Shown piece by piece: positions 32,469 to 64,000 of a DNA stretch of 64,000 nt. The stretch covers positions 35,305-99,304 of the forward strand of contig FN648637.1 of the NCBI GenBank assembly GCA_000310025.1, in the 5' to 3' direction. The notes under the pieces were generated by a model that made no database searches, was not told where the DNA came from, and was given only the letters and a program-made list of their open reading frames with translations. This DNA is from Ectocarpus siliculosus. Lineage: Eukaryota; Sar; Phaeophyceae; Ectocarpales; Ectocarpaceae. The position numbers and the translations under genes are program-made. The first letter of the stretch is position 1. Each line of letters begins with the position of its first letter.

Positions 32469-33400
32469 CTACCCCCCTGCGCTCATCTCTAGCATCTGAG
32501 CTTCCCGTAACATGGGCGGCAGGGTGAACTCCTCCAGGATTGTCGTTAAGTCACTCCTCCTAAGGGCGCGGGGGACTGGAAAGTTTTCGAGGGTTGTCGT
32601 CAGCTTCACGTAGTCCTCGAGAGAGAACTCTTGCGCATCAGTGAGTGGCCCCGCGTCGTTCGGGTGTGGCGTGTAGGTTCCCATCTCGGGTTTGCGGCCC
32701 ATCATGTGTGTTTGAGTGATAGCGGCTGTCTGTCGGTCGAAATTGAACACTCCCCTGTTGCCCTCCTTCCTCCTCAGGAAGAACGACCTTGCTTTCCCAA
32801 GAAGATGACCCACCGATGAGGGCCGCGGTTGTACGTTGTCGACCTGTTGTTTCCATGTCTTAAGTTGTGGTGCGATCGCGCCGTCTCCTCTCCGCCTGAC
32901 GGCTACGCAAAAAACCCGTCTCTTGCCGGTGGGGATGCCAGCAGCCGATGCATTCAGCGCTGCCGCTTCCACCGCGCACCCGGCATTCAGCAGCCGTGGT
33001 CGTAGGACATCCTGCCATCCCGTTGTCCCAGAGAACCCGACTGGTGACTCCAAGACCAGGGTGTGCGCTCGGGAGGTGAGGTAGACATAAGCAATTTCCG
33101 TCGCGTGTTCGAGGGTTCCTCTTCCTGGTTTGGTAGCCGGCTGCAGGCGTTCCCCATTGGAATGGCTGGTCGCATCTCTGAAAGGTCCTTGTGGCATTCC
33201 CTAGTGAAGAGGTGCATGTGCACGAGTTTGGCCTCTCCTGCGTCGCCGCTGGCTCAGGTGCACTCGGGCATCTTCCTGTCTGCACCGATAACCCCAACAA
33301 CGTCCAACATGTCCTTGACGGCCAAGAGCATGCCCCCAGCCCCAAGGCCAGGACTACTGCTCGTGGTCGATGTGTCGGACCTCCTCGTGAGCCTCGCGCC
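32469..33400 (-). pseudogene. Element A cytosine-C5 methyltransferase-like domain, frameshifted
   Basis: Between RNase H and integrase, three frames carry the pieces of a domain homologous to element B residues 735-1030. Motif I reads GLGAGGMLLAVKDMLDVVGV (about 33350-33290) in one frame. Motif IV reads IPMGNACSRL (33164-33135) in a second. The third (33197-32469) has motif VI LVLESPVGF (33048-33050 for Glu), motif VIII AGIPTGKRRVFCV and the motif IX-like HPNDAGPLTDAQ then EDYVKLTT. The order I-IV-VI-VIII-IX is that of cytosine-C5 DNA methyltransferases. GNAC replaces GPPC and ESP replaces ENV, exactly as in element B. The frameshifts make this copy a pseudogene. Confidence 0.6.
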
Positions 33401-33667: not shown

Positions 33668-35581
33668 TCATCGGGTAAGGACGTGTCGATGTCGGGTCCT
33701 GAGGGTCCTTGTCGTCGAAGGCGTGACAGGGCGTCTGGGATAAGGTTGTCGGTGTCGTTGCGCCATTGGAGGTCCATGTCGTAGCTCATCATTCGCAACG
33801 CCCACTTGTGCATCTTTGGTGAGAGGTTCTAGCTGGTGAAGAGCCAGATGATGGCTCCGAAATCTGTGATGAGGGTGAACCTTTGGTGCTGGAGGTACAC
33901 CTTGAAGTAGTCTAGGGAGTACATGCTGCCAACACCTCGCGGTCATTTGCCGAGAGCTTCTCTTCGGCTCTGGAGAATCATTTGGCGGTTGTGTTAGCAC
34001 CGACCCCACTGCCAGCGTGCTCGCGTCGGTGTGGAGAGTGAACGGCAAGTCCCAGTCCGGTAGAATGAGCACAGGGTGGGTCGTCAGGGTGTCGATGACT
34101 TTGTAGGCCGCGATAGTTTGTTCCCGTGTCCACGGCACCGGCATCTTGGGCGCTCGGCGCGAGCTGAAGTCCTTGTTTCGGAGGTCTGAGATTGGTGTGG
34201 CGATGGTGCTGAAGTCGGGAATGAATCCTCGTAGGTACCTAGCCAACCCGAGGAACGTTCTTCTCACCTCCCCCACGGTTGATGGCATCTCCTGTCCCTT
34301 CAGGGCCTTGACCTTGGGCGGCGCTGGCCTTGCTCCTTGTTGGCCAATGATGACCCCCCCAAAATCCAGTTCCTGGAAGCAGAGGTCGCATTCGTTGAAG
34401 TGTACGGAGTAACCTTTGTCCAAGAGCATCTGGAGCACCTCGTGGAGGAGAGCAAGCTGTTCTTCGAGGGTTTTGTTGTGGAGGAGGGTGTCGCCGAGCC
34501 ACTTGAGGACACCTTTCCTTATCACAGGCCGGAGGTCGTCGCGTAGGTGAGCAGAAAAAAACGGTGGAATGGTGGTGAGGCCAGAGCTGCTGACGTTGGA
34601 CTCGTACAGCCTCCCATCCGGCCCCCTGAACGCCGTCTTGCGTTTGCCTTCCTCCGCTATCTCCAGCTGGTGGTACGCTTGGCACAGGTTCAGGGAGCTG
34701 AAGTAATTGCTCCCGTTCAGTCGGTCGTGCATCCCCGTGATGTCGCCCAGCCCTCCACTGTCTGTCTTCAGGTGGGCGTTCAGCGCTCGGTAGTCGACGC
34801 ACAATCGGTAAGTGCCGTCGGCTTTCGGAGCTAGCGTGAGGGTTGAGCACGATGCCGAGTTTGAGCAGCGGATTATCCCCATGTCGAACATTCGGCCGAT
34901 GATGTCTAGTACAACCGGTTCCACTGGAGGGCTGAACTTCTGCTGTTTGCATGCGATCGGCCGAACGTTTTCGTCTTTCAAGGGTAGTGTGACTTTTCGC
35001 CCCGGGAGTGGCTTCATGTTGTCGGTTTTCGACCTAAACAACCCTTGAGAGTTGAAGTTCTCAAGGATGTTCAGGAGTTTCTCCCGTGTCTCCGTCCCCA
35101 GTTGACCCGTGTTCGCGTCCTCCACGCGTACCCGGGGGGTTGTCGATGTGCGCCCCTCTCGTGGGGCGGGTTGGGTCGGTTCTGTTGGCTCCGATGGCTT
35201 TGATGTGGGTAGAGGCTCCTTGAGAAGAAGCGTCCGTTGGGTGTCGCTGGTGTTGGTGGCGTACGCTGTGGCCACCGGGGTTCCTTTGGCTATGGACGCA
35301 GCTCGTATTGAGCGGTTGACCACCTTCAACCGTGGTGGTCTGTCCGGGTGCCACCACTGGACTCCCTTCGCGATCCCGGTGGGGCCCTCGCCTTCAAGAT
35401 CGAACGGTTTTCGTGGGTGTACCACGATCAGCGTCTTGTTGTTGGGTTGAGGTCCCGGGAGGTGTGCGTTGACCTCGGCGCTGACCCTCCCCGGTAGAGA
35501 CGCTTCCTCCGCTAGGGTCATTGACCATCTCAACGACCCTCCGTCTTCCCACGCGGCGGCGTCATGGTGCAGGGGGTCCAT
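33668..35581 (-). pseudogene. Element A reverse transcriptase and RNase H
   Basis: A 637-residue frame. The pol N-terminal region (GIAKGVQWWHPD, TLLLKEPLP) is shared with element B. The reverse transcriptase has YRLCVDYRALN, then YFSSLNLCQAYHQLE (first catalytic Asp changed to Asn), then KWLGDTLLH where the YxDD box should be (second Asp pair broken to GD), then FGGVIIG. RNase H starts FTLHTDASTLAVGSVLT and then drifts out of frame. At least two catalytic positions are lost, so the enzyme is dead. The family assignment rests on the whole pattern and on collinearity with element B. Confidence 0.8.
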
Positions 35582-35749
35582 TTTTGCGAACCCCAGTTCT
35601 TGGTTGGTTTAGGTGTCGGATGCTAAGTTATCTACTGCCGTTTGTTCCTCCTGGGCTGTCCACTCCATCGAGCAGTACTCCTCCGCTGATGTCTTGTAGT
35701 GTCGTTGGCTGTGGAGCACTTCGCCCGTCTTTTCGTCTCTGATCCATCC

Positions 35750-36340
35750 CTAGGTGACTCCAAATGGTGTCGCTCCCCACTGTGTGAGCGTTGTTCCCTC
35801 CACCATCATAGCTCCCGGAGGTGGCCTTCTCGGTGAGCTGTCCGGGAGCCGTAGGAGTGGGACGTTTGCGGATGTTGGGTCTGGTTGAAACCACCCTGGA
35901 CCGTGAAAGAAGAAAGGACTTTCATTTTGACGGAAGAAAGCTGTCCCGATGATGAGCTCGCACGGCAGACCCACTACCGATCTGACCGGTACCGTAAACA
36001 CTCGGTCCATCGGTGGGAAGACCAGGAAGAGGGTGCAGCTACCGAGAATACTCATGGGTGGTACGTTGCTATCCTGTGGGTTGGCAGCTCGAAGGTGTCC
36101 TCTGCCTCGTTTGGAGAGCATGCTTCTCCCCCCGTACTCCATGCGTTCTACCTCTCGGATGAACGACGCTGATGCGTAGTTGCCCCCGCATGCTCCCGTG
36201 TCCGGCAAGACCGTCATCATTCTGTGACCTAGTCTCCGGTTCCAGAGACGGGATTGTACCCAAGCCTGGTGTGTGCCCTTTTGTCTGCGCTTGTTGTGTA
36301 GGGGGGCCACGGTGTTGATCATGTCGCCGTCGTCGTTCAT
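35750..36340 (-). CDS. Element A retropepsin-type aspartic protease
   Basis: A 196-residue frame with MTVLPDTGACGGNYAS, the catalytic D-T-G-A of a retroviral-type aspartic protease. About 95 residues later comes LPCELIIGTAFF, matching the hydrophobic-hydrophobic-G block that closes the fold. It sits between gag and reverse transcriptase, as in Ty3/gypsy elements, and would mature the polyprotein as a homodimer. The frame is open, but the element around it is broken. Confidence 0.75.
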   Translation of the reverse strand: MNDDGDMINTVAPLHNKRRQKGTHQAWVQSRLWNRRLGHRMMTVLPDTGACGGNYASASFIREVERMEYGGRSMLSKRGRGHLRAANPQDSNVPPMSILGSCTLFLVFPPMDRVFTVPVRSVVGLPCELIIGTAFFRQNESPFFFHGPGWFQPDPTSANVPLLRLPDSSPRRPPPGAMMVEGTTLTQWGATPFGVT

Positions 36341-36480
36341 TCCGGGTGCCCCCCTGCGATGTCTGTGTGTGTTTCCCGGAGGATCCTCCTCCAGGGCGCA
36401 CCTTCAGGCGGTTCATCCACCCTCCTCTCCCTCGGCAAGGCATGGTTCGTCCCCCTCGTACCACCCCCGTTCCAAGTGTG

Positions 36481-38900
36481 TCAGGTACACGAGGTCGAGG
36501 CTTGTCTGTTCGCTCTTATTGTTCCGGGGGTATGCGCCGAACGGGATGGGTGTGGACTCCTCAGAGTAGGTCCACCTGCAGTGTCCTGCTTCAGCCATCT
36601 TGGGGCATGTTTCCCCCGGGCGTGGTAGAAGCACGTTTTCTTCTTCCGGACATACTGGGTAATGTCCCGTTCCGAGGCGGTGCTTTCCGGAGCATCGGTT
36701 GTTGTTGATGGCAGTGTCAACGACCGTTCGCCCGTCGGCGTGTCAGTTGGTCGTCCTGTCCGCTGGGCGTCCCCTTCCCGCCTAGGTCGCCGGGTGTCTC
36801 CATATGGTCGTGCCACCCGCTGGGTATTGATGTGTGGTTTTATATGATCATCTTCCCCGTTGCGGTACCATTTCCTTCCCGCTGATGTAGGAGGGGTAGG
36901 TTCCTGTCGCAGGGCCACGGCAGCTACCTCGCCTTCGTCGGCGTGCTCATATCCAGGTGGTTCCGAGTCCGTGTGGCGGTCGATCGCAAAGGCCGTCGAT
37001 TTGTGGGGCTTGGCGGGTTTGGCGGTGTTTGTTGAGGATTTCATGCCTGGCGGTAAGCGGAGGGAAAAGGCGTTCACGTTCGAGCTCCTATCCGCGGCTC
37101 CTCGGCCGCCCGGGCGGTGGTCCCGCTTTGCCTGTTGGCTGATCCCGTTGGTGATCTCGTAAAAACACCTTTTCACGTTTACTCCCCGGCCTACCATCCC
37201 GGGCGAGCCGATGGCGTGGCGGTTAAACGGGTAGTTGCGCAGCGTGGCCTCGTGTTGTTGTTTTTGGACCATTAGGAAGCCAGTGTACGACAGATGGTCG
37301 ATTTGTTTTGGCGTGCAGAGAGCTTCCGCTCGCTCAAGAATGTTGTCGAGGTCACGCGCGCTGAGAAATCGCCAGAAGCACTGTTCCTCGATTAAGTACG
37401 GTGCATTGTGGTCCAGCTCCGATGACCTTGCGCATTGGACCAGGCGGTTTATTGATGTAATCCACGCTTCCCTGTAGTTGAGACTGGTGTTGTTCAGGGC
37501 CACCTTGGTTGCTTGTGCAGCCAACTGCGATTGTCCTACTTCTTCCAAAAATGCGCGGATGATGTCCATGACCGTGGTTTTGGTCATGAGGGACGTCCAC
37601 GTACCCCCCGGTGACATTGTGGACTCGCATCATCCCACCCGAACGGTAGGCGTTGGCGACCGCTAGGTCCGGCGGGGTGCAGTCGAGGAAAAGTTCAATG
37701 CGGGCGTTGGAGAGGCCGTCCACCTGCGGCCGCATGACGTTCGCCACCCCCGCTGGGACGGGAACGTCGGTTGGGACGGTGAAAACTCCCCCGACTCTTG
37801 GCGCATTACTTCTAGGAAGGTGTCTGTGAGGAATAGTGGGTCGTTTTGCGCTGTCAGCGAGGCCGCTGAGGTAACGGACGGGCCCTGGTGCATTGACTCC
37901 CGTTTGGGAAGGTCTAGACGAATCCTGATCCGGGACATCGTTTGAAGGCGTTGGATTGGGGTGCTTAAGTTGATGCTGGTGGGGACCATATATGGTTTGT
38001 TGTTGGTGTGGCCCATAAGCTCCGCCCGGCTGGGACAGGGGCCCTCCTCTGTACGAAGACCAATGAGGTTCCTGTTGTCCCAATTGTTGGTGCAGCTGCT
38101 GTGGTTGGCTCCCATAATAGCCTCCTCCGTGGGGTTGTTGTTGGTAGTAGGGTTGGGCAGGCACCTGTGGGGCCGGGCGCTGTGGGTTAAACGCCTGATG
38201 AGTCTGCACCTGTCGTTGATAGGGGGGTAGCAGCTGTTGCTGAAGCTGGTGGTACTGCGGAACCTGTAGTGGTTGTGGCGTCCACTGGTGTTGAAGTGCC
38301 TGGTGCGGTTGGCGGAAAGGCTGGTGGTGGGGCAGCTGGTGTTGGAGCGCCTGCTGGGGTTGCTGCTGTTGTTGAGGCGCCTGTTGAGGTTGAGAGGGCG
38401 GCTGCGGTTGCTGTTGTTGCTCGGGTTATTGTTGAGGCACCTGTTGTAGTTGAGGGGGCAGATGTGGCTGTTGCTGCTGATGAGGCTGCTGTTGCTGGGG
38501 TTGCTGTAGTTGAGGCGCCTGGTGAGGTTGATGCTGTTGCTGAGGTGCCTGTTGAGGTTGCGGCTGCAGTTGTTGCTGCTGGTCAGGCTGTTGCTGCTGG
38601 GGTTGTTGTTGAGGTGCCTGTTGGGGATGCGGCTGCGGCTGCTGTTGCTGCTGGTTAGGCTGCTGTTGCTGGAGTTGCTGTTGTGGAGGCGCCTGTTGCG
38701 GCTGTTGTTACTGCTGGTCCGGTTGATCATGCTGAGGCTCCTGTTGAGGTTGATGGGGTTGCGTGGTTGGCGCCCCAGGAGGGCGGCGAGGGCGGCGGGG
38801 AGGTAAGGGGGAGGAGGGGGGATAGGGGGACGGGGTCCTCCGGGTCCCCCGTTTTGAGGTTGGGGGTGGTCGTGGGGTTGAACTGGCTGCTGATTCATTC
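36481..38900 (-). pseudogene. Element A gag, Gln/Pro-rich N-terminus
   Basis: The first 190 or so residues (38800-38230 on the minus strand) are Gln/Pro/Leu low complexity with one in-frame stop. A more complex part follows (38209-37640: NPQRPAPQVPAQPYYQQQ, then LDCTPPDLAVANAYRSGG). A frame change leads to the capsid-like helical core (37617-36481: IIRAFLEEVGQSQLAAQATK, NYREAWITSINRLVQC). Near 36640-36580, CPKMAEAGHCRW in another frame looks like half of a CCHC zinc knuckle. The role as gag follows from its position and this layout. The (CTGTTG)n-rich DNA gives long Val/Ala-rich shadow frames on the plus strand, which I do not regard as genes. Confidence 0.6.
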
Positions 38901-38960
38901 TTGTAGTCGAAGTTGTCGATGCCCTAGTCGATGCCCCTTGCCAGTGTTCCGTCTATCGTC

Positions 38961-39497
38961 CGAAGTCCTTGTCCGCTCCGCGGTCTTCGCTTGCTTGTAG
39001 GTCTCCGCGCTATGTAGGGCACGCTGTTTCTTCCTTCCGGTCGTCTTGCTCCCTGTCTGATGGTTGCCGCACTCCAGAGATTTCGTTGATCCGTGCGTTG
39101 TTCCGTATCGGTTGACTTCCTACCGTGTTTTTTCGTCCCGTTACTCACTATGTTTTTCTACACCCTTCTCGGCCGTATCTCCTCCTATTTCTTCCTTTCC
39201 TTGCCTTCCCTTATTTTTCTTGTTTTTTTCGTTTCTTTTAGGCCGAGTCTTCGTCGTCATTTCGGACTTTTGCTTTTGCTCTCGGTCGGGGGGGCTGCAA
39301 GGAAAACATTATCCAAACCCAAGCGACCTTCTTACGCTCCGAGCAGTTTGTTTTCGCGCGAGCGATTGTTCATGGGCCACGTGCATGGTGGGGGGCGTCT
39401 AAGTGACAGTCCCGTGCACACGGCTTTTTTTTGCTCCTCTCTCGACCACGACAGCACGCCACCGCTGTTTGGAGGTACACGAATCCATAACACCACC
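38961..39497. other. 5' flank of element A, no gene
   Basis: Presumably the leader or LTR region of element A (minus strand), but no repeat partner was found near 29.7-30.2 kb. A hydrophobic open frame at 39093-39674 (+) reads through T-rich DNA and is probably not a gene over its first half. Confidence 0.4.
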
Positions 39498-40464: not shown

Positions 40465-41615
40465 ATGGTGAACCAGAGGCTAGCAGCCAGGCTGGCCGAG
40501 ATGGAGGTACGACAACAAGACGAGCAGCGACGCACAGATGACATCCGGAGCGGGAACGAGCAACAAGGGGCACATCTACCGCAACACGTGGGGAGCCCAT
40601 CGGCCAAGCCCTCCGCCGACAACATCGCAAATGCGATCGCCAATGCCGTGACTGGTCGTCTTCAGACCACATCCGGGGGGGATTTTGGTAGAGTACCGCA
40701 AGTAGGGACACTACGCATGGCTGTGCCTAGACGACTAGAGCCTTGGGATGGGTCATTCAAACCAGGGGAGGATGAGCAGGCCAAACTCTTGATTTTCAAG
40801 TCCAACATGCTTGCAATATTTGCGCAGGAAGGTGTATATGAGGTCATGATGAGTGAAGAGGACACTCATGTTGGAAGAGATGGAGTAGACATGGCTCAAC
40901 TGAAGTCACAGTATGGAGAGCACAAGGTGAACAAGGCGATAGCAGCGTGGAATTTGCTGATCACCACCGTGACTTACATGCCAATCCTGACCCAGATAAT
41001 TTCCGATGGTAGCCCGAGTAGAGGATGCGAATGTTCCTCGAGTACTACGAGCCCCAAGTTCGTCAAGAAAGGACACGCCTCTCGTCAGAATATCACGGTA
41101 CTAGGATGAAGAAAGGAGAGACTCCTCAAGAGTACTTCGGAAGGTTTACTGTTTTGCGCAATAGACTAGCCTCGTACGGTGTCACGTTTTCCGATGATGA
41201 TGCTAACAGTCACTTGGCTTTCAACCATTCGTCTGATTATGATCTGGAGAGGAGGATGCTGGGTAATATGGAAGTGCTGACTCGCCAGAAGATAGAGAGA
41301 GCTGTGAGGAATGCCTATGCGAATAAGGCGCGCGCCCGGGAGGAGGAGCAGAACAGTGGCGTGGGGCACGCTTTCGTCGCTTCCGGTGCACCCCGGGGTG
41401 ACGGAGGTGTCCAAAATGGGTCGAGTGGGAAAGGCGGCAGACAGGACGGCAAAGGCGGCGGTCGGAGCAGGAGCATCGGAGCCAGAGGTTCACCCGTGGG
41501 CGTTTCACACCAACGCGGAGTGCGATGCTCAGAGGAAGCAGCGAGAGCGGCAGCAGCGGGCTCAGCAGCGACAGCAGCCCCAGCAGCAACAGCAACAGCC
41601 GCAGCCTCAACATGA
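40465..41615 (+). pseudogene. Copia gag
   Basis: The first frame (40465 to about 41025) has a charged, Gln-rich N-terminus (RLAARLAEMEVRQQDEQRR) and a capsid-like region (PRRLEPWDGSFKPGEDEQAK, LKSQYGEHKVNKAIAAWNLL). The second frame (41025-41615) continues FLEYYEPQVRQERTRLSSEY, KKGETPQEYFGRFTVLRNRL and GVTFSDDDANSHLAF, the usual arrangement in copia gag. The frameshift near 41025 breaks it. A Gly/Ser/Arg-rich stretch follows, and a degenerate His/Cys knuckle (PWAFHTNAECDAQ) sits at about 41490 in the next frame. Confidence 0.7.
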
Positions 41616-42897
41616 GCCGCAGCAGTACCAGCAGCCTCATCATCAGCAAGGCGGCCGCGGTGGGGGAGGCTGGGGTGGTGGACCTCAGCACGGACCCCAC
41701 GGCGGCCACGGAGCGCAGCAGTGGTATGGATACCCGGCTCACCCTCGCCCGCAGCAGCAGCACTGGCGACCCTCGCACGGGCATGCAAACGTGATGCACC
41801 AGCAGTATAGTGCCACCCCCTACGGGGGGCCCGCAAATGGTAGCGAGTATGAGGGTTGGGAGCAGCAGCAGCAACCGTACCAGCAGCCTCCGCCGGACTA
41901 CACCCAGCAGGAGCAGCCGTACTACCCGCCTCCGGCACCGTACTATCAGCAGCAGCCACCGCCGCAGCCTCCGCCTCCGCCGACGTTCCAGCAGCAGCAG
42001 CCTTCTCAGCAGCAGCAGCACTCCACCCATGCCCCGCCCTACTCATCTAATCCCGGAGCAGCAGCACCGTCCCCCGGCTCCCTTCACTTCTTGATGGCCC
42101 GTTTTGTGCCTGCAGTCGAGATCGTACCGAGTGGTGTGGAAGAAAGTAGCGAGCGTGAGAGTGATAGAGGATTTGCTTTGGCTGCACGAAACCCGGATTC
42201 ACATTTTGGCAGAGAGAGATTTTGGGCCGACAGCGGCGCGACCAACACGTTTGTTAGCAGCAGCCATCGAATGTTCGACTTGAGGCCAGTGCCGCCCGGT
42301 AAGGAGTGCATCCAAGTAGGTAACGGTGCCTATTTGCGCGTGCAGTGTGTTGGGAAGGTAAACATGGCGTTCCACATGCCCAGGCCTTCGGGTGAGACCG
42401 CTTTTTGCGTGCAGATGTCGGACGTAAACGTAGTCTCCGGCATTACCTTCAATCTGTTTTCCCTGCACCATACGCAGCGTAGGCAGAATATTACGTTAGA
42501 CGAACATGGCGTGCACCTCTTCGATTGCCGGCTTTCATTCGCTTACTCCGACGTAGGGTGTTCGCTTTGGGCCACTCGCTTGCCTCCGGAATGTACTGGT
42601 AGTGCTGTGACCTACAGCCCCGATGCCTCCCCCCGTGTTTCTGCCCAAGCCTCCCCGCCTAGCGTTGGCTCAGGCCTTGTCGCGGCAAACTCTCTTTCCC
42701 ACAGAGTGCAGGAGCGGGCACGACTTCGAGTGCGAGTGCAAGTACCGGCTTCCAGTCCGTCGCTGCGGCCCCGGCGTTGTACCTTCGACTCCTGGCGTCC
42801 AGCCCACCGGATCCGACGGTGTAGTACCTTCGAGTCCCAGCGTCCCCTCCACCGCTTCCGGTGTAGTGCTACCTCATTGTGCTTTTCAGCCCGTTGA
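41311..42897 (+). CDS. Copia gag-pol junction: polyglutamine region and aspartic protease
   Basis: A 528-residue open frame. The first third is a long Gln/Pro/Tyr-rich segment (about 41530-42060) encoded by CAG-rich DNA. The protease follows with FWADSGATNTFVSSSHRMF, where D-S-G is the catalytic triplet, then GKECIQVGNGAYLRVQCVGK and GITFNLFSLHH, matching copia proteases. The C-terminal part, after ECTGSAVTYSPD, is Ser/Pro-rich and looks non-structured. The frame is intact but isolated from gag and integrase by frameshifts. Confidence 0.75.
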   Translation: MPMRIRRAPGRRSRTVAWGTLSSLPVHPGVTEVSKMGRVGKAADRTAKAAVGAGASEPEVHPWAFHTNAECDAQRKQRERQQRAQQRQQPQQQQQQPQPQHEPQQYQQPHHQQGGRGGGGWGGGPQHGPHGGHGAQQWYGYPAHPRPQQQHWRPSHGHANVMHQQYSATPYGGPANGSEYEGWEQQQQPYQQPPPDYTQQEQPYYPPPAPYYQQQPPPQPPPPPTFQQQQPSQQQQHSTHAPPYSSNPGAAAPSPGSLHFLMARFVPAVEIVPSGVEESSERESDRGFALAARNPDSHFGRERFWADSGATNTFVSSSHRMFDLRPVPPGKECIQVGNGAYLRVQCVGKVNMAFHMPRPSGETAFCVQMSDVNVVSGITFNLFSLHHTQRRQNITLDEHGVHLFDCRLSFAYSDVGCSLWATRLPPECTGSAVTYSPDASPRVSAQASPPSVGSGLVAANSLSHRVQERARLRVRVQVPASSPSLRPRRCTFDSWRPAHRIRRCSTFESQRPLHRFRCSATSLCFSAR

Positions 42898-52588: not shown

Positions 52589-54830
52589 TTCTGTTGGAGA
52601 GAGAGGACACGATCACCGCAGCTGCCCCGTCAACGGTTAGAAATTATGTACACCGTCACGGTTTTTCTGGTACGCCACGAAGACAGAAACAAACCAAGGA
52701 CAACACTTACTCATGAAGGCCTCGTAGTCGAGATCCGCGGGCCCCCATAACGCGCTCGTGCGCACTCGCGTTCTTGAGGTTCGATGATGGCGAAGCTCCA
52801 GCCGTAAAGCCTCGTACCGCGCCGCCGGTTGCTCTGCCCCCCTGAACTGCGCCTCCCGGAGAATCGATGACGAGCTGCCGCCGCCGCGGAGAAGTGGCGA
52901 AGGCGGCCTTGATCTGTGATGCACATTTTGGGCAAAATAACCGAGGAAGGGACATCAGGGAGATGTTGTAAGAGAGCATGTTATGAAGTGACACTGAAAG
53001 ACGTTAGAGGACAAACATCATCATGGAAAAAAAAACATATTGAGTGCAGCAAGCTGCGAAAGGTGTAGAAACAAGATGGTGAACCGACATATAAGACCGA
53101 AAAGTTGGTCAAATCGCCAAATCCCCTCCCTGACGATACGTTCGGAGGTAGCCGCGTTTTTTAAACGTGTTGGAGGTGGATATATTATTGGTTTCGGGGT
53201 TGTTTGGAGGTATTGTGCATATCTGGAACGAGTACGTTATGACGATTTTTGGAGGCCGACCCTTGGCCGACCACATGACCAATTATTGAACATGCGTAAA
53301 TTATTTCGTGCATGTAGTTTTAAACTGTACTGCGCTCTCTTTTGTCACAAGGGTGACGGCCAGGCAATGTGGGAAAATTTACGGGGGTCTGACAGCTAAG
53401 CGCAGGTTTCCTTCCGAGAGTACGCAGAGAGGGCTAGGGAGCAATACAGAAAAAATGACTCATTCAGTTCGTGGCACAGCTTGATCCAACGTCACGGCAT
53501 ATCACAGCTATAAAAATAGTGGAGAAATGAAATGACTGCTGTCTCGAGGCACCTCGCGGGTTGCACTACAGGTCGAGGTTCATGCAATGAGTGTCAGGGT
53601 TGGCTAAGGGCATGGGGTCGACTCATGCAAACAACTAAAAATCGAACTAAAAATCGAACGACGAAAGAGGGGGTCCCGGAGAATTGTTGGTTGGTATACT
53701 GAAGTACACAGCACAGACTCGGGTGGCCGTTTGGGTTTTTCTACTGCTTGTGCTGTTTTCGTCGGGTTAGCGGCAGAGAGGTGCTACGGACGATGCGAGG
53801 TGCGATGGAGTCACACAACGCTAGTAACACCAATGCAGTTCTGATATAGCACACTTGCTTCCCTGCCTCGGTAGGTGCTGCAGCTGTATATGTGTGTCGA
53901 AGGTGTGCTCACGACCAGGACCAGCTTTGGTAATTGTACAAGCTGTAGGAAGAAATTTAACTGCACCGCTGCTGCTGTGCTGCACAAAAATAATGCCAAG
54001 CAGCGTTGCCTCGATGTCGGTATCTCGACAAACCCTACTGCACTTACCATCTTCGGAAGGCTCGCGTCTTGAGAGCGCTCTCCCGGTGCTCGCCACTACA
54101 TGTGCAATCTCGAGTGGAAGGAGGAGATCGTCGTGCCGCCCAGTTCTCCGTGGGTCGAGACAAGCGCGCTAGCGCAAGCTGGTGCGCCCATGTTTGTAGC
54201 CCAAGCTGAAGGGGCCCCTGGGTTTGGCCGCTTGACCATGGCATCTCCATGGGCTTGGCATTGTGGGTCGTGCGTGTGTGTTGCATAGTAGTGGTGTGGC
54301 TTGGGCTGGCTGTTGGGTGTCGCACCCGAGATGCCAGCGGATCCCAACGGGCCGGGGCTCAACTGATCGGAATTTGATGAAGGGGTATGTACATGGCCCG
54401 GTCGCCCACAATAATTGCGCCGCTTCGCCAGAACTTCGCACTTCGCACCACTGCTGTGCATATCGATATGCATCATGATAATGGGACAAGAAGCACCACA
54501 ACAACACCTACCTATCCCGCTCCACGCCTTTGCGCATCGTGCTTCATACTTCGCACCCGACAGGCAAAAAAAAATCAATAATATTACTTCTTTCGGAGTA
54601 TATCTATGCGCCCGTTCACAACGGCCGAGGATGTGGCAGAGGATCCAACCGTACCTGATGGGCTTGTCCTGGCGTCCTTCACCTGACCTCGTTGGGGTAG
54701 ATTCCGTCTTGCGGAGGTATTCGCGATGACAGTCGTCACGGGAGGGGGGGAATATTGTCACAGTGGTTATAACGCTATCGCTTAGGGTAGCTCACTCATG
54801 TGTTAGCGTAACAAGCACTGGCTAGGGTTC
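52589..54830. other. Gene-poor region with anonymous open frames
   Basis: A 221-residue minus-strand frame (54761-54096) is the longest, Cys/His-containing but without a recognisable motif. A 119-residue plus-strand frame (53040-53399) is also anonymous. Neither has supporting features. Confidence 0.3.
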
Positions 54831-54995
54831 AATTAGTTTCTTCCATTTCATGGTCAGTTTCATCCATTTCATGGTCAGGTTCATGGTATCTTACCATTGG
54901 ATTCAAGTTGGGGGCTAGCAAAAGGGATACAATCCCGGTGGGTCTAGTCAAGGTGGGACTAATCAAGGGGGGACTAGCAAGGGGGGTCTACCTCC
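54831..54995. repeat. Short tandem repeats in the 3' flank of gypsy element B
   Basis: TTCCATTTCATGGTCAG is present about twice (54839-54880) with a 22-bp period. Next to it, a 16-bp unit of the type GGGACTAGTCAAGGTG occurs about four times (54937-54992) with G-run variation. Confidence 0.6.
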
Positions 54996-55494
54996 TGCAT
55001 TGACTCACAACTGGTTGCTGCTTAGCGATGTGGGTCAAAGTTCCTCTTCCGAGATTGGCCGCGTTAACAGTGAGCGATCACCCAAAACACGTGTTGAGGC
55101 GGAGCTCTAGAGGGGCTCCGCCAATGATTCAGGTACACCCTGGGGTATACCCTAGCCCTCCTCAAACCATCGTGAAATGGAATGATTCTCAGTATTTAGC
55201 GTCCGTTCATGCTACCGTGACACCCCCCCCAGCATACATGTGTTGAAAAACACAAAATGCTAAGGAGGTAGCAGAACGTGCTCTTCTCCCTCCTCAGATC
55301 ATACCACGCCGGGAATATAGATCTGAAAAGGAAGGATCGGATGCCGCCCTCCCCAAGTTAAACCACAACAAATGGATTTGAACCTCGGGAGAACGGATGC
55401 CGGTGTGTTCGCCGTCGATGTTACATTGCTGAAATCATCGACCCCGAATGACGGCCGTGAGTACTTTGGCCGCCGTATACCGGACTCCCTGACG

Positions 55495-55764: not shown

Positions 55765-58700
55765 TCACGATTCTTGAGCGGTCAGCGGTGGGAGTCTGGT
55801 GGCAAGATCCATTCCACGCCTTAGCTCCCTGCGATTGAGCTCTTCCCAATCTCCGTCGCTGAACTCCACCCTCCAATACGGATCATAGAAGTCACAGACC
55901 TTTCCTCTGCTGAGCACAATGTTGTTCTCTTGATCCATGAGTTCCCGCCCAACCATGGTTCCACAGGGAAATTCCGCGAGAGCTTCGGCCCGTGTTGCTA
56001 CTTCGCGTTCTCCTCGTGACGGTGGTCCCTGGGGTCTCGGTGCTATATTTACCCCGTGAAAGTCTTCCCACAGGGCATGAAAAACATCAAGTTGCAGAGG
56101 CGAGAAACTGTCCCTGGCAGTGTCTTCGGTGATCCACGGGGAGGTGGTGCCATCCTGGTACTTCCCCCTATACTCCCATGCCCATGCGGACGCTATTCCT
56201 CCAGCGCCCTGGACCACCCGTCTATTCACCAAAGTATACAGAGGTGCCGCGACAACTGAGTCTTCCGCTAATCCTAAATCCGGTGACCATACAAAATGAC
56301 CAAAATCATCTTCGAATGGATGTCTGATGTCTTGTGGTCGCGAATGAAACAGCTTGAAGTCCGTGGCTGCCACCGTCCTCTGGCGAATTTGACGTCCATG
56401 CAGTCTTACAGTGAAGCTCAACCCCTCTCGCACGACGTGCACGACTTGCCACGGTCCTGTGAAGTGGTCATGGGCAAGTTTAGGGTGGACGCCATCCCTG
56501 TAGAGTGTACTGGCGCTCTCCTTGACCAATACCTTGTCGCCTACCTTAGCCTTGGTGCTTGGTGATGCACGTTTTATCTTCGCGTTCTGGAGTCCTCGGT
56601 GTCTATTCCGATTTTCCTGTCTCACTTTTAGCACTTGCATCACTTCCACAGTCTTCCTTCTCGTTTCCTCCACCGTCCTTTCCGACGGCAATGCTGGGCC
56701 CGAGTTGTCTAGTGATGGCGACATGTGGTCAAACGATGTCCTTGGCGCCCGTCCAAAAAGCAGTTGATACGCTGACTCTTTATTTGGAAGACTTTCATCC
56801 GGCGTCGTACGATGGGCCCAAGCGACTACTGCCACATACTCATCCCACCTGTTCGGCCATGCCTGGCAAAGTTCCGACAGCATCTCTTGCAGCACCGCTC
56901 CCATCCTCTCGACCGTTCCCTGTCCTCTAGGATGGTTGGTTGGTCCAAAATCGAGGGATATTTTGAGCCACCGGCACAGGTGTTCCATGATCGCCGAGGT
57001 GTTTTCTGCTCCCGGATCACAGCGCACTGATATGGGTAGTCCGAAGGTGAGGATGAGCTCCAGCAATTTCTTGCTGACCCCCAACGTTTCCTTCGTGGGG
57101 AGCGGAAAAGCGAAGAGGAACTTGGTTGCTCGATCCACTATCACCAGCAAATACCTGTTGCCCTTGTTCGATGTCAACTTCATGTCCAGAATGTCCATCT
57201 CCAAGACTTCCCATGGACGCAAGAATCGCGCCGGTAGCATGTGAATTTGTTTGCTCCACTGTCTCTTCCTCATACGGCATCGACATGACAGCACGTAGTC
57301 TCGCACATCTTTCTTCAGTGACGGCCAATGGTACTTGTCCTCCACAATGATAGTAGTGCGAGCTATCCCCGGGTGTCCGAAGGTGCCATGTGCCAGGGCC
57401 AGTACCGCAGACACCAGCTTGCGCGGTAGGGCTACAACATGTGCCACCCCTCTCGGCGCAAACCAAAGTAGACCTTGATCGTCCAGGATGTAGTCCGCCT
57501 GCTCTCCTTCGCCTTGCTCCAAATTATCCCGGATGGGCTTCAACCTCAGGTCTTCCTGTTGGGCATTTTTCAGTTGGCTACCGTCTCGTAGGACACGCTC
57601 CATTTGTTCCAACTGCTCGGAATGTCCCCGGCAGAGAGGGAAATCGTTGTCTGGCCGTTCTAACCTTGGTTGCGATTTCTCTTGGTCGGACCTCGATGGT
57701 GTTGTAGGCGAGCTCTCTGTCGACACTGATCGCCCCTTTTGTTGTGGCACCCCGGTCTCCTTCTCTGAAGAGGTGGTCGGCTTCACTATGGTGGATGGAG
57801 TGGGTGCTGTCGGCTGTCGTGCTCGCCGAGCCGCACTCCGAGTCTCCGCCGGGGTCACCTTAAAACGTGTGCGGTCGACGTGACGGTCGACTGCAACTCC
57901 CCTAGTCACCACTGCCGCTGTCTCATCTTCCGGATACAAGCTGGCCACGTCGATGAGCAGGTCGTCGTCCACTCGTTTGGTGTGACCTGTCTCTCCGTTC
58001 TTTGTACCATCCATTTGACGCTTCGACCTTCCTTTCAATTGTAGGAGATTCAGAACTTCTCTCAACATTGGCGCTAATGTGTGCTCTTGCATGACTCGAG
58101 CTACATCGCATCTTCTCAGAGTTGGTGGTACCTCGTAGTTGGCCCGGTTGGTGGTTAGCTTCACATAATCTTCCCATGAGAGCTCTTGCGCTTCCTGCAA
58201 CGACCCTGCGTCATTGGGGTGTGCCGTAAAAGTTGTTGGTAGGGGTTTACGACCCATGATGTGTTCCCTTGTAACCGTCACCACCGGCTCCTCAAACGAA
58301 AATATCTCCTTGTTCTGACGTCCCCGATTCAAGAAGAAGCATCCCTGTCTTCTCAAAAAGGCACCGACCGTAGGTGTTGACGGTGCGGTTCTCTCCACAT
58401 TCTTCTTCCACTGAGATAGTTTAGCTGTCAAATTAGGATCGTCGCTCTTCTTGATGGCTACCACAAACACTCTCCGTTTTGTTGTGGGTATCCCGACTGC
58501 TGTCGCTGACAAAGACGCGGTTGCCGTTTCACAGCCCGCCATGCGCAGTTCTGGTTGAAGAATGTTCTTCCATCTCTCTGACCCTGCAAAGCCTACTGGA
58601 CTCTCCATTACCAGGATCTGGATGGGGGACGACACGAAAATCTGCACAATGTTGTCTGCAATTCGCCCTGTCCTCGCTCCTTCGTCTTGACCATCCTCAA

Positions 58701-61143
58701 TGGCGCACGCATTGCCAATGAGAATTTCGGGTTTGTACTCGAGGATCGTTTGGCGTGTTGCGGGTTCTAACGGCTGACGAATCAATGTTGCATCACCGGC
58801 TCCCCCGTTGACTCTGATGCATTCCATGGTCTTCCAATCCGAGTCAATCACACATGTTACGTCCAGCATACCCTCAACGGCTTGTAATGCTCCACCTGCT
58901 CCTCGACCGAGAACAGCCGCCCTCGGCTGTCTTGGTGTAAAGAGACCTTGTGCTTGTTGATACGCCACTACGTACTCTTCGTCCCTCGGTGTCAGCGCAT
59001 CAGGTGTAATCTGCAATGCGTAGAACACACTGAGATTCTCCACTTCTCTGTCATCAACCTCTGTTGGCCCCAGGTCAGCTAAGCAGATTCCATCGAGCTT
59101 GATGTCTTCCTTGTGGAGAGTGGCTAACTTTGGTTGTGAGTCACTTTTCTCCTCTTCTTCCACAAGTTGTGATTGTGCCATCCTTTGGAGAGGAACCCAT
59201 TCCAACACTGGTCCTGCCGGCCCGCTCCCTCTTACTTCGCCGGCTCCATCACCCGGCAATGTGGTGTCGACATCGGGTTCGCCTGAACCTTGCCGCCGGA
59301 GTCTAGAAAGATCGTCTGGAACAACATGGTCTGTTCCCCTTCTCCACTTCAAGACCATATCATACGCCATCATCTTTAGCGCCCAACGGTGCATCTTTGA
59401 CGATAGGTTCTGGCTAATGAAGAGCCACATCAAGGCTGCACAGTCCGTGATGAGGGTGAACTGACGGTGCTGAAGGTAAACCTTGAAATGGTCTAGTGCA
59501 TACAACACTCCCACAACCTCCCGATCGTTTGACGACAGTTTTTCCTCGGACCTGGACAGTCTCTTACTGGCGTACCCGACCGGCGCCTCTCTGTTCTCCA
59601 CCTGCTGTGTCAGGACTGACCCTGCCGCGATCAAGCTGGCATCCGTATGCAGCGTGAAGGGTTCCAGCCAATTAGGTAGTACCAGCACTGGGTATGTGGT
59701 CAGTTTCTCCACGAGCTTCATATACGCCTCAATTTGTGGAGATCCCATGACGACTCGTTTGTTGCGTGCTCGTTTAGAACTAAATTCCTTGTTCCTCAGG
59801 ATGTCTGATAGTGGAGCGGCGATAGCGCTGAAGTCGGGTACGAATCCCCTCAAGTAGTTGGCCAGTCCAAGAAAGGACCTCAACTCTCCCACCGTCGACG
59901 GCATTTCCATTTCTTGCACGGCTGTTACCTTCGATGGTGCTGGTCGAGTTCCATCCCTTCCAACCATGACTCCTAAGAACTCGAGCTCTGGCAATAGAAA
60001 TTCGCTTTTCACGAAGTGACCTGTGTACCCTTTTCTTTTCAGGATAGTGAGGACCTTCTCCAGCAGTACGAAGTGTTCTTCCAACGTCTTGGTGTGAAGT
60101 GCGATGTCATCCAACCATTTCTCCAAGCCCTTGCCCAATACCTCTCGCAGATCATCACCCAACGTGGCTGAGAAGACGGCGGGGATTGTGGTGATACCAA
60201 AGGCGCATCGATTTGACTCGAGTAGACGTCCCGTGGGGTCCCTGAAGGCCGTCTTATGTTTGTCCGTCTCCTCAAGTTCCAGTTGATGATATGCCTGTGC
60301 CAAGTCGAGAGATGAGAAGAACTTACTCCCTTTCATCCGATCGAGCATGCCCGTAATGTCGCCATGTCCACCACTATCCTTCTTGATGAGCTTGTTGAGA
60401 GCTCTGTAGTCTATACAGATGCGGTATGTGCCGTCGGATTTAGGCACCGGCACAATCCGTGAGCACCACGAAGAGGTGGATAGCCTGAAGGTTCCCGCTG
60501 CCAGTCCCTGATTGAGCTGTTTCATCAAGATATCAGCCATAGGAGGACTCCACCTCTGAGCTTTGCAGGCGATTGGGGTGATGTTTTCGTCTATGAGTGG
60601 CAGTCCCACCTTCCTTCCATGTATAATCTTGACGACCTTCGTGTTCTTCGGGAAAAGGCTCCTGAATTTGTAGAGCAACGCTAATAGTCTCGCTCGCGTC
60701 GTCGGGCTCGTCTGTCCTGTCTTGGCCGTGCTTACGTCCACCGACGGCTCCTCGTGTCTCTGGCTCTGTTCCAAGGTCTGTCGTGCGCCCATTAACTCGG
60801 GTGTTGCTTTCCCCGGTAGTGGTTCTTTTAGGAGTAGCATTCTTTCGACATCACTACAGTTCACCGACATTGCCCGCGCGACTTGAGTTGACTCCGTAAT
60901 GGTCTCATAAGCGGTTGTTTTGTTAACCACTTTGATCTTCATCCTGACACTCGGGTCCCACCACTGAACACCTTTCGCGACTCCAAGTACTCCTCCCTTT
61001 TCCATATCGAAAGGTGCCACCGGAAAAACCAACACCAGAGTTTTGGTAAACAGTATTGGACCTGCCGATAATTTTTGTTTTGTTATCTCACGAGACCCCA
61101 TGGTGTCCCATTGGGCACCACGAGACACCATATTGATTCTCAT
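55765..61143 (-). CDS. Ty3/gypsy element B pol: RT, RNase H, methyltransferase-like domain, integrase, Tudor-like tail
   Basis: One uninterrupted 1,792-codon frame. The first 25 or so residues come from the adjacent satellite. Reverse transcriptase, about 205-400: YRICIDYRALN, FFSSLDLAQAYHQLE, WLDD (343-346), FLGVMVG. RNase H, about 495-610: D501 in FTLHTDAS, ITDCAALMWLF. Methyltransferase-like domain, about 735-1030: motif I GRGAGG (746-751), VIDSD (765-769), motif IV GNAC (810-813), motif VI ESP (847-849), motif VIII GIPTTKRRVF (884-893), HPNDAGSLQEAQ (975-986). Integrase, about 1215-1480: H1252, H1257, C1287, C1289, then D1317, D1376, E1412 with the exact D-x58-D-x35-E spacing. Tudor-like tail, about 1728-1780: YDPYWRVEFSDGDWEELN. 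Gag and protease are absent. The intact frame suggests recent activity; loss of the 5' part makes this copy non-autonomous. Confidence 0.9.
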   Translation of the reverse strand: MRINMVSRGAQWDTMGSREITKQKLSAGPILFTKTLVLVFPVAPFDMEKGGVLGVAKGVQWWDPSVRMKIKVVNKTTAYETITESTQVARAMSVNCSDVERMLLLKEPLPGKATPELMGARQTLEQSQRHEEPSVDVSTAKTGQTSPTTRARLLALLYKFRSLFPKNTKVVKIIHGRKVGLPLIDENITPIACKAQRWSPPMADILMKQLNQGLAAGTFRLSTSSWCSRIVPVPKSDGTYRICIDYRALNKLIKKDSGGHGDITGMLDRMKGSKFFSSLDLAQAYHQLELEETDKHKTAFRDPTGRLLESNRCAFGITTIPAVFSATLGDDLREVLGKGLEKWLDDIALHTKTLEEHFVLLEKVLTILKRKGYTGHFVKSEFLLPELEFLGVMVGRDGTRPAPSKVTAVQEMEMPSTVGELRSFLGLANYLRGFVPDFSAIAAPLSDILRNKEFSSKRARNKRVVMGSPQIEAYMKLVEKLTTYPVLVLPNWLEPFTLHTDASLIAAGSVLTQQVENREAPVGYASKRLSRSEEKLSSNDREVVGVLYALDHFKVYLQHRQFTLITDCAALMWLFISQNLSSKMHRWALKMMAYDMVLKWRRGTDHVVPDDLSRLRRQGSGEPDVDTTLPGDGAGEVRGSGPAGPVLEWVPLQRMAQSQLVEEEEKSDSQPKLATLHKEDIKLDGICLADLGPTEVDDREVENLSVFYALQITPDALTPRDEEYVVAYQQAQGLFTPRQPRAAVLGRGAGGALQAVEGMLDVTCVIDSDWKTMECIRVNGGAGDATLIRQPLEPATRQTILEYKPEILIGNACAIEDGQDEGARTGRIADNIVQIFVSSPIQILVMESPVGFAGSERWKNILQPELRMAGCETATASLSATAVGIPTTKRRVFVVAIKKSDDPNLTAKLSQWKKNVERTAPSTPTVGAFLRRQGCFFLNRGRQNKEIFSFEEPVVTVTREHIMGRKPLPTTFTAHPNDAGSLQEAQELSWEDYVKLTTNRANYEVPPTLRRCDVARVMQEHTLAPMLREVLNLLQLKGRSKRQMDGTKNGETGHTKRVDDDLLIDVASLYPEDETAAVVTRGVAVDRHVDRTRFKVTPAETRSAARRARQPTAPTPSTIVKPTTSSEKETGVPQQKGRSVSTESSPTTPSRSDQEKSQPRLERPDNDFPLCRGHSEQLEQMERVLRDGSQLKNAQQEDLRLKPIRDNLEQGEGEQADYILDDQGLLWFAPRGVAHVVALPRKLVSAVLALAHGTFGHPGIARTTIIVEDKYHWPSLKKDVRDYVLSCRCRMRKRQWSKQIHMLPARFLRPWEVLEMDILDMKLTSNKGNRYLLVIVDRATKFLFAFPLPTKETLGVSKKLLELILTFGLPISVRCDPGAENTSAIMEHLCRWLKISLDFGPTNHPRGQGTVERMGAVLQEMLSELCQAWPNRWDEYVAVVAWAHRTTPDESLPNKESAYQLLFGRAPRTSFDHMSPSLDNSGPALPSERTVEETRRKTVEVMQVLKVRQENRNRHRGLQNAKIKRASPSTKAKVGDKVLVKESASTLYRDGVHPKLAHDHFTGPWQVVHVVREGLSFTVRLHGRQIRQRTVAATDFKLFHSRPQDIRHPFEDDFGHFVWSPDLGLAEDSVVAAPLYTLVNRRVVQGAGGIASAWAWEYRGKYQDGTTSPWITEDTARDSFSPLQLDVFHALWEDFHGVNIAPRPQGPPSRGEREVATRAEALAEFPCGTMVGRELMDQENNIVLSRGKVCDFYDPYWRVEFSDGDWEELNRRELRRGMDLATRLPPLTAQES
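58054..58941 (-). other. Cytosine-C5 DNA methyltransferase-like domain within element B pol
   Basis: Domain entry for residues about 735-1030 of the pol above. The known family (Dnmt/Dcm type) transfers a methyl group from S-adenosylmethionine to cytosine C5. Motif I (FxGxG) binds the cofactor, the motif IV Cys attacks C6, the motif VI Glu protonates N3, and motif VIII Arg supports catalysis. Here a glycine-rich GAGG with an acidic VIDSD about 15 residues later, Cys 813, Glu 847 and Arg 890/891 are in the right order and spacing. The Pro before the catalytic Cys is replaced by Ala (GNAC) and ENV by ESP. Motif X (GN) is not evident. The fold assignment is fairly secure; enzymatic activity is uncertain. 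Confidence 0.65.
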
Positions 61144-64000
61144 GGGCGCCCATGAGATAACGGCATGTTGGCGATAAATTTTGTTTTGTTATCTCACGAG
61201 ACCCCATGGTGTCCCATGGGGCACCACGAGACACCATATTGATTCTCATGGGCGCCCATGAGATAACGCCATGTTGGCGATAAATTTTGTTTTGTTATCT
61301 CACGAGACCCCATGGTGTCCCATGGGGCACCACGAGACACCATATTGATTCTCATGGGCGGCCATGAGATAACGGCATGTTGGCAATACGTTTTTTTTTA
61401 TATCTCACGAGACCCCATGGTGTCCCATGGGGCACCACGAGAGACCACATTGATTCTCATGGGCGCCCATGAGATAACGGCATGTTGGCGATAAATTTGT
61501 TTTTGTGATCTCACGAGACCCCATGGTGTCCCATGGGGCACCACGAGACACCATATTGATTCTCATGGGCGCCCATGAGATAACGGCATTTTGGCGGTAA
61601 TTTTTTTGTTTTGTTATCTCACGAGACCCCATGGTGTCCCATGGGGCACCACGAGACACCATATTGATTCTCATGGGCGCCCATGAGATAACGGCATGGT
61701 GGCGAAAATTTTTGTTTTTTTATCTCACGAGACCCCATGGTGTCCCATGGGGCACCACGAGACACCATACTGATTCTCATGGGCGCCCATGAGATAACGC
61801 CATGTTGGCGATAAATTTTGTTTTGTTATCTCACGAGACCCCATGGTGTCCCCCGGGGCACCACGAGACACCATATTGATTCTCATGGGCGGCCATGAAA
61901 TAACGGCATGGTTGGCAATAAGTTTTTTTTAATATCTCACGAGACCCCCATGGTGTCCCATGGGGCACCACGAGAGACCACATTGATTCTCATGGGCACC
62001 CATGAGATAACAGCATGGTGGCGGTATATTTTTTTTGATATCTCACGAGACACCATACTGATTCTCATGGGCGCCCATGAGATAACGCCATGTTGGCGAT
62101 AAATTTGTTTTTGTGATCTCACGAGACCCCATGGTGTCCCATGGGGCACCACGAGACACCATATTGATTCTCATGGGCGGCCATGAGATAACGGCATTTT
62201 GGCGGTAATTTTTTTGTTTTGTTATCTCACGAGACCCCATGGTGTCCCATGGGGCACCACGAGACACCATATTGATTCTCATGGGCGCCCATGAGATAAC
62301 GGCATGTTGGCAATAAGTCTATTTTGTTATATCACGAGACCCCATGGTGTCCCATGGGGCACCACGAGACACCATACTGAATCTCATGGGCGCCCATGAG
62401 ATAACGCCATGTTGGCGATAAATTTTGTTTTGTTATCTCACGAGACCCCATGGTGTCCCATGGGGCACCACGAGACACCATATTGATTCTCATGGGCGGC
62501 CATGAGATAACGGCATGTTGGCAATAAGTTTTTTTTTTTATCTCACGAGACCCCATGGTGTCCCATGGGGCACCACGAGAGACCACATTGATTCTCATGG
62601 GCACCCATGAGATAACAGCATGGTGGCGGTATATTTTTTTTGATATCTCACGAGACACCATACTGATTCTCATGGGCGCCCATGAGATAACGCCATGTTG
62701 GCGATAAATTTGTTTTTGTGATCTCACGAGACCCCATGGTGTCCCATGGGGCACCACGAGACACCATATTGATTCTCATGGGCGGCCATGAGATAACGGC
62801 ATTTTGGCCGTAATTTTTTTGTTTTGTTATCTCACGAGACCCCATGGTGTCCCATGGGGCACCACGAGACACCATATTGATTCTCATGGGCGCCCATGAG
62901 ATAACGGCATGGTGGCGAAAATTTTTGTTTTTTTATCTCACGAGACCCCATGGTGTCCCATGGGGCACCACGAGACACCATACTGATTCTCATGGGCGCC
63001 CATGAGATAACGCCATGTTGGCGATAAATTTTGTTTTGTTATCTCACGAGACCCCATGGTGTCCCATTGGGCACCACGAGACACCATATTGATTCTCATG
63101 GGCGCCCATGGAATAACGGCATGGTGGCGAAAATTTTTGTTTTGTTATCTCACGAGACCCCATGGTGTCCCATGGGGCACCACGAGACACCATACTGATT
63201 CTCATGGGCGCCCATGAGATAACGGCATGTTGGCAATAAGTTTATTTTGTTATCTTACGAGACCTCATGGTGTCCCATGGGGCACCACGAGACACCATAC
63301 TGATTCTCATGGGCGCCCATGAGATAACGCCATGTTGGCGATAAATTTTGTTTTGTTATCTCACGAGACCCCATGGTGTCCCATGGGGTACCACGAGACA
63401 CCATATTGATTCTCATGGGCGCCCATGAGATAACGGCATGGTGGCGATAATATTTGTTTTGTTATCTCACGAGACCCCATGGTGTCCCATTGGGCACCAC
63501 GAGACACCATATTGATTCTCATGGGCGCCCATGAGATAACGGCATTTTGGCGATAAATTTGTTTTTGTGATCTCACGAGACCCCATGGTGTCCCATGGGG
63601 CACCACGAGACACCATATTGATTCTCATGGGCGGCCATGAGATAACGGCATTTTAGCGGTAATTTTTTTGTTTTGTTATCTCACGAGACCCCATGGTGTC
63701 CCATGGGGCACCACGAGACACCATATTGATTCTCATGGGCGGCCATGAGAAAACGCCATGTTGGAAAAAAGTTTTTTTTGATATCTCACGAGACCCCATG
63801 GTGTCCCATTGGGCACCACGAGACACCATATTGATTCTCATGGGCGCCCATGAGATAACGGCATTTTGGCGGTATATATTTTGTTTTGTTATCTCACGAG
63901 ACCCCATGGTGTCCCATGGGGCACCACGAGACACCATATTGATTCTCATGGGCGGCCATGAGATAACGGCATGTTGGCAATAAGTTTTTTTTTATATCTC
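61066..64000. repeat. 106-bp satellite array with higher-order structure
   Basis: About 27 units of 105-107 bp, running off the window. Each unit contains TTATCTCACGAGACCCCATG, GTGTCCCATGGGGCACCACG, AGACACCATATTGATTCTCA, the perfect palindrome TCTCATGGGCGCCCATGAGA and TGAGATAA, followed by a T-rich linker (CGGCATGTTGGCGATAAATT, then TTGTTTTG). TTATCTCA and TGAGATAA form an inverted repeat bounding most of the unit. Two units (near 62040 and 62645) share the same 32-bp deletion, and their neighbours match one to one, giving a higher-order period of about 605 bp. The array joins gypsy element B near 61066. Confidence 0.9.

Follow-up and report, generated by a model that had tools for sequence, protein, structure and literature searches.

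What could a retrotransposon gain from a cytosine-C5 methyltransferase in a host whose DNA methylation is reportedly negligible? This question is raised by a stretch of 64,000 nucleotides of the brown alga Ectocarpus siliculosus (contig FN648637.1, positions 35,305 to 99,304; below, the window), in which the Pol open reading frame (ORF) of a Ty3/gypsy element includes a C5-methyltransferase-like domain between RNase H and integrase (Table 1). This arrangement, proposed in a preliminary description made from the sequence alone, is confirmed by the order of the Pfam domains (reverse transcriptase, RNase H, integrase), which is that of Ty3/gypsy elements, and by the predicted fold. According to the explanation preferred here, for which the chances of being right or wrong are about even, a C5-methyltransferase was captured once, and its shared function in Pol is most likely binding, not methylation.

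The PF00145 model of C5-methyltransferases matches the window domain with 13.7 bits (E 0.042), below the curated cut-off of 22, and it matches five of 12 family members at E ≤ 10 (best E 0.0036). A PHROG DNA methyltransferase family is matched by 11 of the 12. Two structure models were built from overlapping sequence sets (the modelled slice of the window is 58006–59097), and for both of them C5-methyltransferases top the fold-search lists, covering the catalytic and the C-terminal parts. The predicted structure comprises a methyltransferase core and a C-terminal part as in M.HhaI; identity to C5-methyltransferase structures is 11–16% among the VIA-align matches listed. Profile comparison by hhalign aligns the motifs of the domain with those of C5-methyltransferases and places Cys813 on the catalytic cysteine. 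Thus, of the checks suggested in the preliminary description, the PF00145 search fell short of the cut-off and the structure prediction returned a C5-methyltransferase fold. The type of donor (DNMT2-, DNMT1- or phage-like) is not distinguished by structure, where the ranks are tied within ~1–2 Z.

The motifs named in the preliminary description are present in the window ORF at the verified positions, but they are not canonical. The residues of PCQ in motif IV and of ENV in motif VI are important in C5-methyltransferases; in alignment A4 the P, C, E, N and V columns are invariant and Gln is kept in most rows. The retrotransposon domains, read position by position in 27 genomic copies from the fetched loci, fall into clade A, to which the window element belongs, and clade B. 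The Pro before and the Gln after the motif IV Cys are absent everywhere they were read, so that the PC(Q) signature of the enzymes is missing. All 12 aligned members have S, T, A or C where motif VI canonically carries Asn, and likewise lack ENV; the Asn is present, as ENP, in genomic copy C143 and in fragment P0013. Of the 22 genomic copies of clade A, 20 have the cysteine itself (the exceptions have Tyr in C36 and Asp in C5), as do all 11 clade A proteins from outside the genome that cover motif IV. None of the five clade B genomic copies has it (Glu in four, Gly in one), and both clade B polyproteins from outside the genome (P0009, P0010) are without it. Motif VI Glu is retained in 25 of the 26 genomic copies where it was read, and the only miss (C288) is spurious, caused by a frame shift at the edge of the alignment, LVLESP being present there. 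GxGG of motif I and the Pro of motif VIII are likewise kept in the copies where they were read. These three features, Glu, GxGG and Pro, are common to both clades despite ~34–35% identity between them.

The domain is not confined to the window copy, and its absence from other copies, named in the preliminary description as grounds for refutation, is not what was found. A search of the genome (189 Mb, 492 contigs) with the domain slice gave 88 matching pieces, several of them in other gypsy lineages. Eight polyproteins from outside the genome carry the domain (P0002–P0007, P0009–P0010; seven full-length, P0007 partial), with 46–62% domain identity in six of them (P0002–P0007; for P0007 over part of the domain). 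Pieces of it occur in a further 15 short proteins, and its first residues in P0026, which is annotated in Ectocarpus sp. CCAP 1310/34 and is 91% identical to the window ORF over 618 columns; P0007, from the same strain, is 63% identical over 998 columns. Integrase domains were detected in five of five homologues scanned, and reverse transcriptase and RNase H as well in four of them. A profile search that scored 8000 candidates yielded 16 proteins at E ≤ 0.001, among which no free-standing close relative or donor was recognised, only pieces of elements of this kind; no relative was found among 24 pattern stretches of viral contigs.

Trees of the methyltransferase domain (10 rows), reverse transcriptase (10 rows) and integrase (8 rows) recover the same two clades with 99–100% support and show no supported conflict; the order of P0001 (the window ORF) and P0004 is not resolved in the methyltransferase tree. 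Because the trees are congruent, the domain was most likely gained once, before the lineages split, and then inherited with the element. Two relatives retain paired long terminal repeats (LTRs). In copy C59 the pair is 98.2% identical and 8.4 kb apart. Copy C30, of clade B, is an 11.5-kb insertion (G000:C30:772550-784061). Its 635-bp LTRs share 99.1% identity, its target duplication is 4 bp long (GTTG), and its uninterrupted Pol of 1943 aa is without the motif IV Cys.

Selection on the domain was estimated from the ratio of nonsynonymous to synonymous substitution rates (dN/dS), for which nine clade A copies, out of 15 besides the window copy, were compared to the window copy and four clade B copies to C30. 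Locally dissimilar, frame-shifted stretches were masked, which lowers dN/dS, and the comparisons share references and hence are non-independent. With these limits, the domain has a pooled dN/dS of 0.28 in clade A, where all nine comparisons lie below 1 (p ≤ 0.002); the value for clade B is 0.39 (4/4, p ≤ 0.02). The other regions of clade A gave 0.23 (reverse transcriptase), 0.11 (integrase core), 0.41 and 0.34 (linkers); those of clade B gave 0.42 (integrase core), 0.70 (linker) and 0.62 (reverse transcriptase, one short comparison). Judged from these codon comparisons, purifying selection on the domain is real and moderate, and in clade A it is weaker than on the integrase.

In a six-frame exon search, which could miss diverged genes, PF00145 matched only two exons of the genome, 2 kb apart on C2. 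They belong to an intron-containing, DNMT2-like gene (G000:C2:8124750-8127041), one exon of which best matches DNMT2 (5.4e-15), the other being matched to PF00145. Within the reach of that search, a host DNMT other than DNMT2 was rejected as a candidate, and the remark of the preliminary description that Ectocarpus is said to lack canonical Dnmt genes is supported. This agrees with reports that brown algae have no DNMT1, 3 or 5 and possess only DNMT2-like enzymes (PMC13076208), that Saccharina has DNMT2-type genes only, yet ~1.4% of its cytosines are methylated (PMC6916402), and that 5-methylcytosine is negligible in Ectocarpus (PMC12477816). Early-branching brown algae with DNMT1 are also mentioned (PMC12344493).

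The copies were examined for the trace that methylation leaves at CpG sites. The observed/expected CpG ratio is 0.85 in the element versus 0.99 in window positions 1–54755, and 0.85–0.92 in the copies. CG sites of clade A undergo transitions at 1.4 times the rate of CH sites, but the transition/transversion ratio at CG is below that at CH, with 1.60 vs 2.01 for clade A and 1.15 vs 2.79 for clade B; in the C98 family it is slightly raised (1.56 vs 1.42). CpG loss is thus small, and neither clade A nor clade B has a raised transition/transversion ratio at CG, which gives no support for lasting CG methylation of the copies once integrated. Transient methylation of complementary DNA (cDNA) or RNA may be compatible with these values.

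The preferred explanation could be described as follows. A cytosine-C5 methyltransferase would have been taken up a single time by an ancestor of these Ty3/gypsy elements, which probably belonged to the Tudor-tailed elements of brown algae, and placed between RNase H and integrase before the present lineages split. Since then the domain has moved and diverged along with Pol, as the trees and alignments show. It has kept the C5-methyltransferase fold, the S-adenosylmethionine (AdoMet) loop and the motif VI Glu, but PCQ is lost, ENV is degraded and, in clade B, the cysteine is gone. The role shared by both clades would be non-catalytic, that of a clamp within Pol that binds AdoMet and nucleic acid and handles the cDNA or the RNA:DNA intermediate between reverse transcription and integration; in clade A, including the window element, residual C5-methylation of cDNA or RNA could persist. 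What the analysis shows is the predicted fold, the anatomy, the co-inheritance, the moderate purifying selection and the loss of the cysteine; the binding of ligands, like the timing and the role, is inferred. Binding is suggested as the shared function by a clade B element that has near-identical LTRs and an uninterrupted Pol but no nucleophile, and by the survival of the fold, the AdoMet loop and the Glu. Since the fold lies between RNase H and integrase, it could hold new cDNA between these steps. A cofactor- or DNA-binding module, mentioned as an alternative in the preliminary description, fits at least as well as a methylating enzyme.

Several observations weigh against binding as the shared role. 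The retention of the cysteine throughout most of clade A exceeds purely structural need, and motif IV aligns in hhalign only with a one-residue gap, which makes its Cys the likely rather than the certain nucleophile. C30 was possibly moved in trans by the Pol of another element, and therefore its recency is no proof that its Cys-less domain works. The domain also evolves about three times faster than reverse transcriptase or integrase (end-branch medians 0.59 vs 0.19 and 0.20), and the unmasked dN/dS medians over all pairs of 16 copies are 0.48 for the domain, 0.31 for reverse transcriptase and 0.49 for the linker. Given this fast evolution and an unmasked dN/dS equal to that of the linker, the case for function is moderate. 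The same rates, together with the lost catalytic signatures, could indicate a decaying captured remnant, tolerated as a spacer in Pol and weakly constrained by polyprotein folding alone. Such a passenger is improbable, as dN/dS is below 1 in every masked comparison, albeit with shared references and masking that lowers the ratio, and Glu, GxGG and the motif VIII Pro have outlasted the divergence of the clades.

A working enzyme is possible, if rather doubtful. Clade A could methylate its own cDNA, an RNA:DNA hybrid or RNA (e.g., the tRNA primer), a function of the sort suggested for DNMTs of retrotransposons elsewhere, with clade B having lost the activity later. The conserved cysteine and its place in the profile alignment, the near-invariant Glu, the mostly kept GxGG of motif I and Pro/Arg of motif VIII and the purifying selection speak for such an enzyme, and retrotransposon DNMTs provide a reported precedent of de novo CG activity, but the SymbioLINE enzyme that was tested is reported as inactive on DNA in yeast (PMC5890265). 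The missing Pro and Gln of PCQ, the missing Asn of ENV in the aligned members, the recent Cys-less insertion in clade B, the lack of clear CpG decay and a host group reported without DNMT1, 3 or 5, with negligible 5-methylcytosine in Ectocarpus (PMC13076208, PMC12477816), all speak against it. It is scarcely credible that the domain is another Rossmann-type fold with chance matches to the motifs. The PF00145 score below the cut-off would allow this, as would a single-sequence search of PDB sequences, which found no methyltransferase (the best matches being capsid proteins, E 0.077), and an hhalign comparison with one E. coli Dcm sequence, which came out empty; both of these single-sequence comparisons are regarded as uninformative. 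However, both models rank C5-methyltransferases first across both parts of the domain, the profile comparison aligns the motifs, and a profile search of PDB sequences gave seven weak matches, five of them M.HhaI. Chance motifs and a different fold were rejected on the fold models, fold searches and profile alignment; because the domain is conserved in six other polyproteins, is matched by PHROG in 11/12 members and is modelled as a C5-methyltransferase fold, it is regarded as real. Returning to the binding module, a wider view is offered tentatively: a lineage-wide, DNMT-derived and DNMT3L-like pseudo-enzyme, retained without catalysis within the apparatus of replication and integration, would have acquired a new role in retrotransposition in hosts whose DNA methylation is reported as lost, perhaps active in one sub-lineage as a candidate C5 methyltransferase besides the host DNMT2.

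The window copy is 5'-truncated, and its junction with the satellite array marks the truncation point. Upstream of its Pol ORF neither gag nor protease nor a 5' LTR was found; within the ORF the homology to other elements begins near residue 29, the preceding codons being satellite read-through, and only the 3' LTR and the polypurine tract accompany Pol. A sub-threshold Tudor match (PF21743) was obtained in the window Pol and in five of five homologues scanned (E 9.2e-5 to 0.036). The C-terminal Tudor-like match would fit the reported Tudor-tailed Ectocarpus gypsy. The gag part of P0006 and P0007 has, by eye, a CCCH-like zinc finger in place of the usual CCHC knuckle. Another gypsy element, degraded and from a related lineage, lies at window positions 30200–39000 (minus strand), with gag-like, protease-like, reverse transcriptase and methyltransferase-domain remnants; its frame-shifted domain was recovered in the genome search as two pieces (C147:67782-68432 and 68420-68662). 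An ORF with a Pol_BBD match (E 2.7e-8) at 41311–42894 (plus strand) is probably part of a Copia-type element.

Table 1. Features of the gypsy element and its surroundings in the window (window coordinates).
Feature	Position	Strand	Remarks
Pol ORF, 1792 aa, open for 1792 codons	55765..61143	-	first ~26–28 codons satellite-derived
Reverse transcriptase, residues 233–393	59965..60447	-	Pfam RVT_1, E 3.8e-19
RNase H, residues 468–594	59362..59742	-	Pfam RT_RNaseH 1.6e-26, RT_RNaseH_2 3e-23
C5-methyltransferase-fold domain, ~300 residues (736–1032)	58048..58938	-	AF2 model, fold searches, hhalign, PHROG
Motif I GRGAGG (AdoMet loop)	58891..58908	-	
Motif II-like VIDSDW	58834..58851	-	
Motif IV position IGNAC, candidate nucleophile Cys813	58705..58719	-	
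Motif VI position VMESP, Glu847	58597..58611	-	Glu invariant in 12-row alignment
Motif VIII VGIPTTKRR	58471..58497	-	
Motif IX-like LSWEDYVKLTT	58150..58182	-	assigned by eye
Motif X-like TLAPMLREVL	58051..58080	-	by eye; unnamed in the preliminary description
Integrase H2C2 zinc finger, residues 1240–1293	57265..57426	-	Pfam 5e-13
Integrase core rve, residues 1309–1405	56929..57219	-	Pfam 8.3e-10
Weak Tudor-like match, Pol C terminus, residues 1747–1775	55819..55905	-	Pfam PTM_DIR17_Tudor, E 0.0067, below cut-off
Polypurine tract G8	55223..55230	-	
3' LTR, 467 bp, ends TGTCAC/GTGACA	54756..55222	-	match to LTR pair of copy C59
106-bp satellite array	61066..64000	.	adjoins truncated 5' side of element; reaches contig end
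Second methyltransferase-domain copy, frame-shifted	32478..33358	-	in related gypsy element

Discussion of DNMT capture by retrotransposons has centred on self-methylation in hosts that methylate their DNA. In the present case, a C5-methyltransferase domain persists under selection in a host reported with negligible DNA methylation, and the recent insertion of a nucleophile-less copy in one branch makes it testable whether catalysis or binding benefits the element. Surveys that use the PF00145 cut-off, as reported in PMC5890265, would overlook such a domain, because the same model found the DNMT2-like gene alone in the host genome. Titles and abstract openings of mostly non-subscription literature contained no published methyltransferase domain in a brown-algal gypsy element. 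The Sola1 DNA transposon reported from Ectocarpus has an N4C/N6A-type methyltransferase, a different enzyme class in a different element (PMC12477816). A close counterpart from the same alga is Gypsy-10_Ec32, a Tudor-tailed brown-algal gypsy, probably of the same lineage when compared by description; the Tudor domain is reported for it, with no methyltransferase given for gypsy elements in the main text (PMC12477816).

Compared with the catalytic domains of M.HhaI, DNMT2 and DNMT1, the element domain shares the predicted fold, motif order, AdoMet loop, motif VI Glu and motif VIII, but it is without PCQ, has a degraded ENV, lacks the cysteine in clade B and, among the VIA-align matches listed, is remote in sequence. 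Retrotransposons bearing C5-methyltransferases are reported from Symbiodinium (LINE and DIRS) and Klebsormidium (gypsy), as the preliminary description had correctly stated for dinoflagellates and a charophyte (PMC5890265). SymbioDIRS-Dnmt3 and SymbioLINE-Dnmt of dinoflagellates are similar in being retrotransposon-borne, the SymbioDIRS enzyme within Pol; they differ in element class (DIRS and LINE) and in their key residues, which are reported as conserved (PMC5890265). KnitGypsy-Dnmt3 of Klebsormidium nitens, compared by description, is alike in that the Pol of a Ty3/gypsy element includes a C5-methyltransferase domain that is under purifying selection, but it carries a Dnmt3 with key residues reported as conserved, in a host with cytosine methylation (PMC5890265). 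In contrast, the domain of the Ectocarpus element lies below the PF00145 cut-off and lacks PCQ, and the only PF00145 matches of its host are DNMT2-like.
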